A DNA stretch of 64,000 nt from Parabacteroides faecis (GTDB taxonomy: Bacteria > Bacteroidota > Bacteroidia > Bacteroidales > Tannerellaceae). Shown here piece by piece: positions 2,175-27,519 of the stretch. Location of the stretch: positions 682,001 to 746,000 of the forward strand of contig NZ_BMPB01000001.1 of assembly GCF_014647375.1 (NCBI RefSeq), in the 5' to 3' direction. The notes beneath the pieces were generated by a model. The model did not search any database and was not told the origin of the DNA. It saw nothing but the letters and a program-made list of their open reading frames with translations. The first letter of the stretch is position 1. Each line of letters begins with the position of its first letter. A program made the position numbers and the translations under genes.

Positions 2175-5100
2175 ATGGGGCTTAAATTCTTATATACACT
2201 ACTTTGTTTATGTATATTGTTTCCATTACCGGCGAAAGAACTTTATTTCAGACATATTGATTTGAATGACGGCTTTACGCAGCCCTCCGCTATTTCTGTT
2301 TATCAGGATGCAAAAGGGGCTATCTGGTTCGGGAACGATAACTTTAACGTGTATGACGGAAGGATTGTCCGTTCTTTCCGTCTTTCTAACTATCTGGAAG
2401 AGGTAGAAGACAATAATATTCACGGAATATGCGGAGACGGGGATTCATGTATTTATATGCTGGCTAATCGACGGCTGGTATTTTTTAATATGCGGACCGA
2501 AGAGTTCCGCCTGACAACCGTGCTGGCACATACCCTGGAATACCGGGACGGGACATTGTATTATGCTTACAGAAACGAATTATATCGTTATAAATCCAAT
2601 GGTGTCTCGGAAAAACTCTGTGCTTTACCTGATTCGACACTGATCATTAAAGACCTGTATTATGTGAATGACGGCTGGCTGATGGCTACAACGAAAGGGT
2701 TGTATCGTTTTTCGGACGGGACGTTTCAGAATTTGCTGGAGAATGAATCGATCACTTCTTTGTTTGTGGACTATTGGGGAAGATTATGGGTCGGAACGTT
2801 GGCCAATGGTGCTAAGGTATTCAGCGAAGGTAAGTGGATCGCTTTGCGGGAGGACGATGCCGTCCATCCGCTTATTAACGACCAGGTGCGTTCTATCAAC
2901 CAGGATATCAAAGGGAATATATGGATCGGTACGTATGCCGGCATCACTGTTGTGAACCCGTTTCTTCAGGATTATTACCATCTGTCGCACAAGGAGCAGG
3001 TCCCCTGGTCGTTGAAGCATTCGTCGGTTTATGCAATTTATAAGGATGATCAGGGAGGAATGTGGGTCGGTACTTACTATGGAGGGTTAAGCTATTTTAA
3101 TCCGAATACCGAGGATTATACATACTACGGTATTTCTCCCGACGATCCGGAGAGCCTGGAGGGCTTCCTGTTTGGTAAGATGGCAGAAGATACGAAAGGA
3201 AACCTGTATATCGCTACCGAGCATGGACGGCTGAACTGCCTGGACCGCAATACGCAGAAAGTAAAACGGTTCAATTCCGGTCTTTCCCGTATTCCTTGCC
3301 GGACAACCAAATCTGTCTGGTATGATACCGGAAACGACCGGTTATATATCGGAACTTTTCAACACGGCTTATATTGTTATTCTTCTTCCGGCCGTCTGGA
3401 ACGTCTGGGAACAGGTGTATTGCTGAACGACAGCCAGCAGATTATTACGGATCTGATACCCTGGCAGGGCAATCTGATCGTTGTCTCGCAGGAGGGACTG
3501 TTCCTGTTGAATCTGGAGACGCAGAAACTGTCTCCTTTGTTTTCCGATCCCGATCTTCGTAACCAGACCGACGGGATTATCCGTTCCGTCTATCTCGATA
3601 ATGAAAACAGGCTATGGCTTGCTCCGGCGAATAAAGAAATTGTTTGTGTCCGAATGGATACCCGGACGGTAGAGAAAATACCTTCTGTGAGGAATATGAT
3701 CGGAAAGAGACCGGTTCCTGACATTTCAGGAGATGGGAGAGGGCATATCTATTTTGTAGTAACTGGTGTTGGAGTATTATGCTATGACCAGATGAATGAT
3801 TTCTGGGCATGCTATAATCAGGAACAAGGCCAGTTGCTGACAAACGAACCTTTCCGGGCTTTGGTCACTCCTTTGGGCAGATTGCTGGTCACTTCTATCC
3901 GTGGTATAACTTTGCTGGATATGAAAACAGGGAAGAGTACGCATACGTTGCTGGGTACTTCCTCTCCGTTGCACCGGCTGAATTCTAACTGCGGGGTGTA
4001 TCTGTCTCCCAAAGACAGTATGATATTTATCGGTGGGGTGGAAGGTATGATCGCAACGAAAGAATCCGGATTGTCGACCGTCGCGGTTCCTTATACCATA
4101 TCGTTCAATAGTCTGTCGGTGAATAATGCGCCTGTCTACCCGTCTGCATCATCGAATATCTTACAGGAGGCTGTTTCGTATACCTCCCGGCTGACTTTAC
4201 CTTACGACCGGAATAACATAACGCTGGGATTCACTTCTACCAATTACCGTTATGCCGATAAGAATTTATTTGAATATAAACTGGAGGGATTGGATAAACA
4301 ATGGACACGCACGCGGCATCAGCAGATCGTTTATACTTCCATTCCTCCGGGAAATTATAATCTGTTGCTGCGGGAGGCAGGGGAAGGTAAACAAATAGTG
4401 ATGTCTATCCGTGTCCGTCCTCCTTTTTATGCTTCGGTATATGCTTTTACCCTGTATGGTTTACTGGTTCTTTCGTTTCTGGTCTGGCTGATCCGCTTTA
4501 ACCGCAGCCGTGCTTTCCTGAAGGCTTCCCTGGAACTCGAACAGCGGGAGAAATTGCGTATAGAGAAACTGAACCAGATGAAGCTGAAATTCTATATCAA
4601 TATATCGCATGAACTGCGTACTCCGCTCACCCTGATGATCAGCCAGGTCGACCTGGTCCTGCAGAACTATGATCTGGGAGGGACACTCCGGAATAAATTG
4701 CTGAAAGTACGGCAATATACGGCGCAGATGCAGCAGCTTATTACGGAAGTACTTGACTTCCGCCGGCTTGAACAAGGGAAAATGCCTTTTCGTGCAAGTC
4801 AGCAGAATCTGGTCGCTTTTATGCGCCAGATATTCGATTCATTTAAGGATTATGCTGTTATGAACCGGATTCAATACCGGTTTGAAACGGTAGATGAAGA
4901 TATACCCGTTTGGTTCGACTCGGTACAGATACGTAAAGTATTTAATAATCTGCTTTCAAACGCATTCAAGTTTACTCCGAAAGAGGGGAATATAACCGTG
5001 AGCATACTCCGTAAAAAGGAATTTGCGGAGATCCGGATCTCCGACACAGGCTCTGGGATTCCCCAGAGCCAACAAGCCCATATATTTGAGCGGTTTTATC

Positions 5101-25923: not shown

Positions 25924-26024
25924 TCTTGTTTACACGTTCAGTTATTTTATACGAATATTCAACTGTAAATACCTTATTGGATAAAGCCGTAAAAGGAGTA
26001 TTTTTTTAGTTAAATTTTATAGCG

Positions 26025-26032
26025 CAAAGATA
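26025..26032 (-). promoter_or_regulatory. Predicted -7 element for the PAP2 gene
   Basis: Reads TATCTTTG on the minus strand, about 100 bases upstream of the PAP2 start. No clear -33 element is seen. Confidence 0.4.
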
Positions 26033-26116
26033 TGGACAAATGGATGTGTAGTTTGGTAAATAGGTGGTTCCAAATAGTTTACATATTTGTTTCATATATG
26101 GATACAGGGAGGGTGT

Positions 26117-26338
26117 TTAAGAAGTAAACAGGTCGGTTTTTACCGCCTCGGAAAGGTCCTGGAAGAAATTGTGTCCTAGAATGCAGGAGATGCGCCAAAG
26201 TTGGTAGGTATCGATACTTTCCTTGCTGAAAATTTTATATACATTCGGACGGGTACAACACAATTGTGTTGCAAACCAAGTAACTGTACGTCCCTGGTCA
26301 TGAAGCTTAAGCTCAATAAGCCGTCCAACATGAATCAT
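26117..26338 (-). CDS. Small HTH (XRE-like) DNA-binding protein
   Basis: A 73-residue protein of a type common in Bacteroidales: MIHVGRLIELKLHDQGRTVT, then a helix-turn-helix core (WFATQLCCTRPNVYKIFSK) and a short tail (FFQDLSEAV). It probably binds DNA as a small regulator. It lies alone next to the inverted structured element at 26401-26660 and 521 bases from the toxin-antitoxin pair; whether it regulates either is unknown. Confidence 0.75.
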   Translation of the reverse strand: MIHVGRLIELKLHDQGRTVTWFATQLCCTRPNVYKIFSKESIDTYQLWRISCILGHNFFQDLSEAVKTDLFTS

Positions 26339-26400
26339 GGTAAATTCCTGGCTTGTACCCGACTCCCTTAGGTGGTTCGTTTCTGTAAAAGAAAGTCTAT

Positions 26401-26660
26401 ATACAAGAAGGCGTGGGAATCTTACCTTCGCCCGTCCCGTATTTCAGGGCCTTCGCATTGCCCACCTGTCGAGAACGAGCAACGCAGAAAGCCCACGCCG
26501 ATATGTACTACAAACCATATATTTCTTGGGTAAGAAATACACAGATGCTTGTATAAACATATCAGGAGGACGTCTTTGTTGCTATTTATCATTTCGACAG
26601 GTCAAAAGTTGCGAAGTTCTGAAATACGAAAGACAAACGCTAATAAACGTCTTCTTTATA
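26401..26660. repeat. Two related ~105-base structured modules in inverted orientation around a central hairpin
   Basis: Module 1 (26401-26506, plus strand) and module 2 (26557-26660, minus strand) share the ordered blocks CGTATTTCAG, CTTCGCA and ACCTGTCGA with nearly equal spacing, plus similar outer ends. Between them is a perfect 8-base hairpin (26520-26527 with 26532-26539). In module 1 GGCGTGGG (26410-26417) pairs with CCCACGCC (26492-26499); in module 2 the same place pairs with different bases. An inner stem GCC/GGC in module 1 is GTT/AAC in module 2. Such compensated changes suggest folded RNA. I do not recognise the element. A reading frame across it (26337-26807) is not convincing. 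Confidence 0.7.
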
Positions 26661-26673
26661 AATAAACCACTCT

Positions 26674-26693
26674 CCCCAGCACCCACCCTGGGG
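26674..26693 (+). repeat. Short hairpin downstream of the inverted modules
   Basis: CCCCAG (26674-26679) pairs exactly with CTGGGG (26688-26693) over eight bases. The following CTTTCTGC resembles, in reverse complement, the GCAGAAAG of module 1 at 26484-26491, so it may be part of the same element. The remainder of 26339-26858 holds no supported gene. Confidence 0.5.
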
Positions 26694-26812
26694 CTTTCTG
26701 CTGAGGAGTCCTTTACAAAGGTAGGAAAAAATGGAGAAACAAAAATTATAAAGAGGGAAAATTCATATAGGAGCTGCTCATTGATAGTTGAAGAAATGAG
26801 GAATTAGAGCCA

Positions 26813-26842
26813 TTGTAGATATTGATTTTATTTCTAACTTTG
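26813..26842 (+). promoter_or_regulatory. Predicted promoter of the mntA-hepT pair
   Basis: TTG (26813-26815), 19 bases, then TAACTTTG (26835-26842), matching the Bacteroidetes pattern. It predicts a leader of about ten bases. Confidence 0.55.
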
Positions 26843-26858
26843 TAGAAACGATATATTT

Positions 26859-27152
26859 ATGAAATCTGTAGCAGAATATAAGGAGATATTATCCAAATTT
26901 AAAAAAGAGTTTGGACCGCAGTTCGGTATTAAAGAACTAGGTATTTTTGGTTCTGTAGCTAGAGGAGAACATACAGAAGAGAGTGATCTTGATATATTTG
27001 TTTCATTGGAGAAAGTTGAGCCATTTATCATTTTCGACCTTAAAGAGTTATTGGAAGCTTTATGTAAATGTAAGGTCGATTTGGTGCGGCTAAGGGACTC
27101 ATTGCGTCCGGCATTAAAGAATAATATCCTGAAAGATGGCATTTATGTTTGA
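26859..27152 (+). CDS. mntA: MntA-type minimal nucleotidyltransferase antitoxin
   Basis: A 97-residue nucleotidyltransferase of the polymerase-beta fold. The signature GSx10DxD is present with Gly31-Ser32, Asp43 and Asp45 (GSVARGEHTEESDLDIF). In studied pairs this protein AMPylates a tyrosine of the HepT toxin and so silences it. The downstream hepT overlaps it by 17 bases, so the two are translated together. Confidence 0.92.
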   Translation: MKSVAEYKEILSKFKKEFGPQFGIKELGIFGSVARGEHTEESDLDIFVSLEKVEPFIIFDLKELLEALCKCKVDLVRLRDSLRPALKNNILKDGIYV

Positions 27153-27519
27153 TAAAAGAAGAGTACTGGATCGTTGCGATCAGATTGTTGAGTCTATTGA
27201 TCTGATAATGCAATGGAGCAAACCGATTCTATCTCCGGATGACTTTTTGCTTTCCCCGGAACATGTTTTGATTTTTGATGGTTGCGTGATGCGTCTCCAA
27301 ATCATTGGTGAAAATATTAAGAAGATAGACGAATGTACCAATGGAGAACTCTTCTCAGAATATCCTGAAATACCTTGGCGAAAGGTAATAGCCCTTAGAA
27401 ATATCATATCCCATGAATATGCGAATGTTGATGAAGAGATTATTTTTGCTGTTATCAGACAGAGCCTACCTCCTTTGAGGACTGTAGTATTAAAAATAAG
27501 TAATATGCTTCAAATATAA
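27136..27519 (+). CDS. hepT: HepT-like HEPN ribonuclease toxin
   Basis: A 127-residue all-helical HEPN-domain toxin, predicted to cut RNA and stop growth when not silenced by MntA. The RNase motif RNIISHEY supplies Arg88 and His93 (RxxxxH), and the following Tyr95 is at the place of the tyrosine modified by MntA in the studied pair. The chosen start overlaps mntA; Met4 at 27145 is an alternative. Both genes look intact, so this should be an active type VII toxin-antitoxin pair. Confidence 0.9.
   Translation: MAFMFDKRRVLDRCDQIVESIDLIMQWSKPILSPDDFLLSPEHVLIFDGCVMRLQIIGENIKKIDECTNGELFSEYPEIPWRKVIALRNIISHEYANVDEEIIFAVIRQSLPPLRTVVLKISNMLQI

Follow-up and report, generated by a model that had tools for sequence, protein, structure and literature searches.

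Between a small HTH-like gene and an mntA-hepT pair of Parabacteroides faecis lies a stretch of 260 bases in which the list of open reading frames holds no credible gene, as a preliminary description of the locus had stated. That description took the stretch to consist of two homologous modules in inverted orientation around a perfect hairpin, forming either a folded RNA or a hairpin DNA element. The question raised by the locus is what the two modules are to each other, on which strand they act and whether they serve the genes beside them. It is addressed here by comparing the element, within the window (the whole stretch of DNA analysed, 64,000 nucleotides long, whose positions are used throughout), with its relatives in other genomes.

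Read on the minus strand, on which all of the following features lie, the whole unit is larger than the 260 bases first described; it extends over approximately 26361-26723 and runs into the small HTH-like gene, in the order promoter-like box, P1, P2, P3, P4, T-rich stretch, GGGAGTC motif and ATG of that gene. The box, TACCTTTG at 26716..26723, matches TAnnTTTG, the Bacteroidales form of the promoter -7 box, and would place the transcription start site at about 26709; the leader measures approximately 310 nt to the T-rich stretch and 370 nt to the start codon. P1 (26673..26708) is a 5' hairpin that holds a candidate antiterminator arm, GCAGAAAGCCC (26691-26701), complementary at 11 of 11 positions to 26484-26494 on the 5' side of P4. 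The two modules were located where the preliminary description had placed them, the right-hand one being the P2 hairpin domain (approximately 26569..26653) and the left-hand one the P4 hairpin domain (26410..26499). P2, which has covarying local stems, carries the blocks b1 (CGTATTTCAG, 26619..26628), b2 (CTTCGCA, 26610..26616) and b3 (ACCTGTCGA, 26594..26602), while the terminator-like P4 carries a3 (26464-26472), a2 (26451-26457) and a1 (26438-26447). P3 (26500..26563) is a spacer hairpin with the ends GATATGT/ACATATC that is variable between copies and has 80.2% of the cells of its base paired; the perfect 8-bp hairpin noticed earlier lies inside it at 26520-26539. The arms of the terminator-like stem are T5 (GGCGTGGG, 26492..26499) and T3 (CCCACGCC, 26410..26417), and the T-rich stretch that follows, TTCTTGTATAT (26399..26409), is weak in this copy. 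Between the P4 stem and the start codon, the P5 motif GGGAGTC (26361..26367) is the complement of a sequence on the 3' side of P4. The gene that follows the leader (26117..26338) encodes a 73-aa protein that we take to be HTH-like.

The element proved to be one of many. With 271 bases as the query, BLAST gave nothing but the element itself below E 1.5 in its own genome. The plasmid records yielded a match to a Bacteroides finegoldii contig (76% over 95% of the query length) and four further matches that cover 12-20% of the query only. In the B. finegoldii copy an HTH gene of the same kind occupies the corresponding position, and the other side holds a different gene, for a polysaccharide deacetylase; no mntA-hepT neighbour is annotated there, and the 25 Pfam families most often seen downstream of the copies described below include neither that of MntA nor that of HepT. 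The element is not conserved with this type VII toxin-antitoxin system, and the neighbourhood to which the preliminary description had drawn attention is incidental. In the window the MntA-HepT pair (26859-27519, plus strand) is divergent from the leader promoter and matches Pfam NTP_transf_2 and HepT-like; its scores of 53.1 bits for NCBIfam MntA_antitoxin and 31.9 for HepT_toxin fall below the cut-off of 60 that applies to each, indicating that the pair is diverged. A B. finegoldii record named 'plasmid 40' (NZ_OY725942, 36.5 kb) resembles a piece of chromosome in gene content.

A BLAST search with 396 bases found relatives in 48 of 393 Bacteroidales genomes and 30 of 206 genera. A covariance model, R1, was built from 22 aligned P4 modules of 33 loci (the 11 missed by the anchor script were left out), and its E-values rest on a short calibration. 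In the window's own genome R1 reached E <=1 at 13 places, and E fell below 1e-3 at nine of these. Across the order, in a search of the kind that the preliminary description had proposed, R1 matched 94 of 392 genomes and 53 of 204 genera; up to nine matches per genome reached E <=1e-3 when ten candidates per genome were scored. In a phylum-wide draw that includes some other Bacteroidales, R1 matched 2 of 392 genomes at E <=1e-4, both of the window's genus. A 17-base core pattern occurred in at least 117 stretches of named genomes, and among the 80 matches listed R1 recognised 74, including those of Bacteroides clarus, B. bouchesdurhonensis, B. caecigallinarum, Paraprevotella clara, Prevotella ihumii and Muribaculaceae; the six that it did not recognise are all labelled non-Bacteroidota, and one R1-positive contig is labelled as a Firmicutes MAG. 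The exact pattern of the window's blocks was absent from 38 other genomes of the genus and from viral contigs because the blocks are copy-specific. In the window's genome, loci L165-L175 form a subfamily with short leaders, in which b2/a2 cores of the type CTCGAC/GTCGAG occur; some of these leaders precede ECF-sigma-like and SusC-like genes. Locus L200 has two P4 modules on the same strand, 1.2 kb apart (2749-2852 and 3953-4056). A leader copy is also carried by MT839469, a 4260-base record named Bacteriophage sp.; judged by reading, its open reading frames are of bacterial appearance, one product being phosphoadenosine-sulfate-reductase-like and another ATPase-like.

For comparative analysis 122 copies, which are not mutually independent, were assembled from 30 best-per-genome loci (the window's included), 80 chosen further matches of the order search and 12 other matches in the window's own genome. 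Isolated mismatches, counted under a scoring blind to wobble pairs, were G-U rather than A-C in the ratio 158:4 in the inner stem of P4 and 52:0 in its outer stem (122 copies), and 207:38 in P2 and 45:20 in the loops of the 92 copies whose own loops beat all swaps (see below). This excess of G-U over A-C argues that the element is a structured RNA transcribed from the minus strand of the window. Folding of both modules, which the preliminary description had proposed, gave energies better than those of dinucleotide shuffles for minus-strand RNA (z -3.27 and -2.56), compared with z -1.41 and 0.02 for plus-strand RNA; folded as single-stranded DNA, none of the four was unusual (z -1.35 to 0.57).

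The shared ordered blocks that had been taken for homology between the modules are present, and they match at 10/10, 9/9 and 7/7 positions, as reverse complements by which the loops of P2 and P4 pair with each other (b1 with a1, b3 with a3 and b2 with a2, respectively). Since the blocks pair with each other, and do so in a copy-specific manner, we discarded the idea that one module is an inverted copy of the other. Complementarity was scored between the P4 loop and the P2 region, two of the 122 copies being dropped because their upstream sequence was too short. In 92 of 120 copies, where about five were expected, the copy's own partner scored higher than each of 25 swapped ones, the mean being 42.35 for own and 25.6 for swapped partners; the loops of the window scored 53, compared with a best of 36.5 among 25 swaps with other copies. 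The predicted loop-loop duplex of the window reaches -51.9 kcal/mol, and duplexes of P2 region and P4 loop average -41.0 kcal/mol for own partners and -29.0 for swaps. Ungapped scoring of all 120 copies gave a permutation z of 14.9 (reversed control 1.2); swapped partners scored alike whether taken from the same genome (18.95) or from another (19.21). The remaining 28 of 120 copies, in which own loops failed to beat all swaps, count against the explanation favoured below; among the 12 other copies of the window's genome, own loops beat all swaps in seven and did not in five.

Compensated base pairs, already suspected in the preliminary description, were borne out by an alignment (A3) of 56 of the 74 copies of length 195-262 among the 88 in which own loops beat all swaps with a score of at least 36, so that its loop-loop figures come from pre-selected rows. 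In A3, 88.5% of 4132 cells were paired, falling to 38-45% when the columns were slid by 1-3, and these pre-selected rows had 478 double-change cells against 174.8 in shuffles. One b1:a1 column pair (33/257) contained AU 18, GC 17, UA 15, CG 4 and other 2 times in the 56 pre-selected rows. For b2:a2, 99.7% of cells in the same rows were paired and both sides had changed in five of seven pairs; b3:a3 had changed on both sides in all seven column pairs, yet only 69.0% of its cells were paired, some rows, including that of the window, being shifted by one column. Overall the loops covaried with z 17.3 (reversed control 3.0; 56 pre-selected rows).

Whether the loops join two local hairpins or P2 and P4 pair throughout their length as one rod is a separate matter, on which energy and covariation differ. 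The pseudoknot-free minimum-energy fold has long-range P2-P4 pairing and lacks the terminator stem in 116 of 120 copies, which counts against the explanation that we favour, so that either fold may be the ground state; the long-range fold gains a median of 12.8 kcal/mol over two separately folded halves (120 copies), compared with a mean of 2.45 for swapped halves, and the gain exceeds all eight swaps in 105 of 120 copies. However, the local arms covary in the 56 pre-selected rows, with z 8.6, 8.7, 5.8 and 9.9 against 2.3, 4.3, 4.2 and 2.0 in reversed controls (the P2 local stems account for 8.6 and 5.8, controls 2.3 and 4.2), whereas arm pairs found only in the rod do not (z -1.4, 2.0, 2.0 and 0.0; controls -0.9, 1.9, 1.9 and 1.9). 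An earlier, smaller test on 24 usable copies pointed weakly in the same direction (local z 4.3 and 5.2, controls 3.4 and 2.4; rod z 1.1 and 0.7). The outer stem of P4 was 98.4% paired in the pre-selected rows of A3, with changes on both sides in five of its eight pairs. We therefore rejected the long-range rod, as its specific arms do not covary while the loops and the local arms do; local hairpins with joined loops appear from these comparisons to be the structure that best matches selection. Folding of the nascent chain was set aside as evidence for a decision window because the counting of pairs was too broad.

The family is also consistent in what surrounds it. TAnnTTTG starts 20-130 nt before P2, mostly 55-80 nt, in 73 of the 87 selected copies with enough upstream sequence (of 88), compared with 3 of 87 for an equal control stretch further up. 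The next open reading frame of at least 80 aa is co-oriented with the element in 110 of 122 copies and missing in two; the ten on the opposite strand count against the reading that we prefer. The gene before the element is on the same strand in 55, on the opposite strand in 54 and missing in nine of 118 copies examined. Downstream proteins of at least 60 aa with a start within 300 nt were taken from 103 copies, leaving out 19 of the 122; 75 of these 103 genes start 20-100 nt after P4, and their products match 69 Pfam families at E <=0.001, the commonest being BspA-type LRR (12), CarboxypepD_reg (6), sigma-70 regions (4) and TonB plug (3). The copies in the window's genome precede, among others, ECF-sigma-like and SusC-like genes, as named from reading the translations.

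Transcription attenuators, such as trp-, ANTAR- and riboswitch-type leaders, use terminator and antiterminator hairpins, and candidate counterparts of both can be recognised here. The 8 nt after P4 contain a mean of 6.5 T in the 113 of 122 copies that were readable, compared with 1.84 in a control stretch, so that across the family a terminator-like stem and U-run stand upstream of a co-oriented gene; the U-run is weaker in the window than in the family, a further point against our best explanation. The terminator arm has in addition a mutually exclusive partner, evident in family statistics, in the 11 nt of the window and in 15 of 15 HTH-type leaders. Over 120 copies the 5' arm of P4 showed copy-specific complementarity to P1 with z 10.6, compared with 5.9 for the P2 region, 1.4 for P3 and 0.2 for the stretch upstream of the promoter, but only 42 of 120 copies have a P1 partner that is strong (score >=24; off-diagonal 8.8%), and only 53 of 120 have one scoring >=22 in P1 or P3. 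A separate permutation test gave z 10.4 for P1 and 10.3 for P5, with reversed controls, at 3.3 and 2.9, themselves above zero; P1 beat all 30 swaps in only 12 of 120 copies and P5 in only 9 of 122, about four being expected for each.

Comparison of the copies supports the RNA nature of the element, its strand, its stems, the loop-loop pairing, its position before co-oriented genes, the promoter box, the U-run and the competing arm. With a probability of about 0.6, we consider the element to be a 5' leader RNA, most likely a transcription attenuator, that belongs to a multi-copy Bacteroidales family. According to this model, minus-strand transcription from the leader's own promoter would run in the direction of the HTH gene, and the RNA would fold as P1, P2, P3 and P4, with three copy-specific helices joining the loops of P2 and P4. 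P4 together with the U-run would act as an intrinsic terminator and end transcription, unless the 5' arm of P4 paired instead with an upstream arm, which would prevent termination; P1 would supply this antiterminating arm in the window's subfamily, other subfamilies drawing on the P2 region or on sequence immediately before P4. The loop-loop lock and the competing arm would together set the outcome, and a signal, be it a small molecule, a protein or an RNA, presumably shifts the balance.

The HTH-like protein itself has no Pfam match; its single-sequence AlphaFold model is poor (mean pLDDT 66.5) and mostly strands, and a PDB sequence search returned only a weak Tn3 resolvase match (E 0.26). 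Of 247 Bacteroidales genomes, 35 encode relatives of this protein, with as many as eight in a single genome. A leader precedes 19 of the 30 HTH-gene loci examined, 13 being recognised by R1 on the sense strand at E <=0.006 and six by eye in the alignment, and R1 matches are present in at least 22 of the 35 genomes with such HTH genes, compared with 94 of 392 overall; the other 13 are perhaps outside the R1 sample. In 15 diverged HTH-type leaders the loops pair again (z 10.7, 0 of 5000 permutations). The 5' arm of the terminator has two alternative partners there, its 3' arm (0 of 5000) and an arm immediately before it, for example GTTCACGC (3 of 5000); all these arms were picked out visually, the second partner scoring at least 18 in 15 of 15, and the statistics come from permutations alone. 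It seems from these alignments that relatives of the HTH gene often have diverged leaders with an explicit antiterminator. Those at L299-L313 form a sister family whose antiterminator hairpin resembles GTTCACGC / GGCGTGGAC and whose b2/a2 cores include CGCCAA/TTGGCG; R1 missed six of its members. Beside one HTH-type leader, and outside the element, lies a weak match to the DUF805b cis-regulatory RNA (L304, 1330-1365, minus strand), its 31.6 bits falling below the gathering score of 35.6. A general search for self-complementarity before HTH genes was not selective.

The statement that the element fits no nameable class has held. Rfam 15 gave no match in the window at curated thresholds, and the weak-match search of 26000-26860 returned one chance miRNA match (E 4.2); among weak matches in ten relatives, 14 HTH loci and 12 copies from the window's genome, nothing convincing lay over the element. 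No description of such an RNA was found in the main texts of the open-licence literature searched, nor in the portions of PMC2864571, PMC7366714, PMC8040213 and PMC11697453 drawn on here, and the family is apparently undescribed. A Bacteroidetes candidate of approximately 100 nt from a human-microbiome screen, as given in part of PMC8040213, could coincide with P4. Bacteroidales-1 (RF01693), Bacteroides-1 (RF01694) and Bacteroid-trp (RF01692), structured RNAs of Bacteroidetes that appear in a portion of PMC2864571, were considered and dropped, as Rfam 15 gave no match to the element at either gathering or weak level.

Membership is claimed only for the general class of leaders that work like attenuators. 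The element shares with attenuators its leader position, a terminator-like stem with a U-run and a second partner for the 5' arm; unlike them, it has an extra three-part loop-loop pairing of an upstream hairpin with the terminator hairpin, re-encoded in each copy, and no known leader peptide or ligand. In the extended kissing complexes CopA-CopT and RNAI-RNAII of plasmids, the loops and loop flanks of two hairpins pair. The element resembles these in having two hairpins paired through their loops, but here both are in one transcript before a gene and the partner is in cis.

Several other explanations have to be weighed against the attenuator. Its own promoter box, compact fold and U-run would equally suit a stand-alone non-coding RNA that always ends at the U-run and acts in trans, the gene behind having its own promoter, and multiple copies are likewise known from small RNA families such as FopS. 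As presented in part of PMC11697453, FopS/GibS of B. thetaiotaomicron is a multi-copy family that shares with the element a link to SusC-like genes, a promoter and a terminator; FopS there consists of a single-stranded 5' stretch and a terminator hairpin, acts in trans and is said to be deposited in Rfam, of which no family matches the element, and on this architecture and the Rfam result identity with FopS was rejected. A stand-alone RNA would not explain why 110 of 122 copies have the next gene in their own orientation while the preceding gene is divided 55:54, why 75 of 103 downstream genes start 20-100 nt after P4, or why diverged versions precede 19 of 30 HTH-gene loci, and the competing arm and the P5 motif are sensible only if read-through matters; we hold it to be quite unlikely. 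A leader that acts through its loop-loop duplex on translation, mRNA stability or RNase III processing, and not on termination, would make use of the P5 motif near the start codon and of a duplex (mean -41.0 kcal/mol, swaps -29.0) that is a possible RNase III substrate; however, a conserved U-run right after a 7-8 bp stem and a competing T5 arm are marks of an attenuator, and we find this alternative rather improbable.

A metabolite riboswitch in which a single ligand serves all members of the family would be a special case of the main explanation; it agrees with the attenuator-like output and with conserved stretches of P2 and P4 that are unpaired or lie at junctions. It is unlikely nonetheless, because the genes, with 69 Pfam families among 103 proteins, have no metabolic theme, and because the loops, the most elaborate part, vary freely as long as pairing is kept, unlike a binding pocket. 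Of the two natures that the preliminary description had allowed, the folded RNA has stood, on the G-U asymmetry that selects one strand; a DNA hairpin or mobile structured element (REP, MITE or recombination site) is most improbable, despite the inverted symmetric layout and the several copies per genome. Such elements would have no strand preference, whereas this one has the asymmetry of G-U over A-C, a promoter box at a near-fixed distance and a bias in gene orientation, and the copies within the window's genome are too unlike one another for BLAST to find.

A wider reading, tentative and rather unlikely, may also be offered, namely that of a superfamily of Bacteroidales RNA switches in which private loop-loop locks of approximately 25 nt do the sensing and gate terminators. 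The locks could be re-encoded from copy to copy so that paralogues avoid cross-talk, and the gated genes could be those for surface proteins, sigma factors and HTH regulators. As each lock is addressed by its sequence, a matching RNA could open it in trans, in the manner of a natural strand-displacement switch, and the HTH family, whose own genes have leaders of this kind, could act as a dedicated partner. A copy-specific loop code of this kind is unusual and directly testable, and model R1 together with the list of pairs permits immediate annotation. The structured leader occurs in approximately one quarter of the sampled Bacteroidales genomes (94 of 392), often in several copies per genome, before genes for outer-membrane, BspA-like, sigma-factor and HTH proteins, and would amount to a so far overlooked level at which dominant gut bacteria control their genes.
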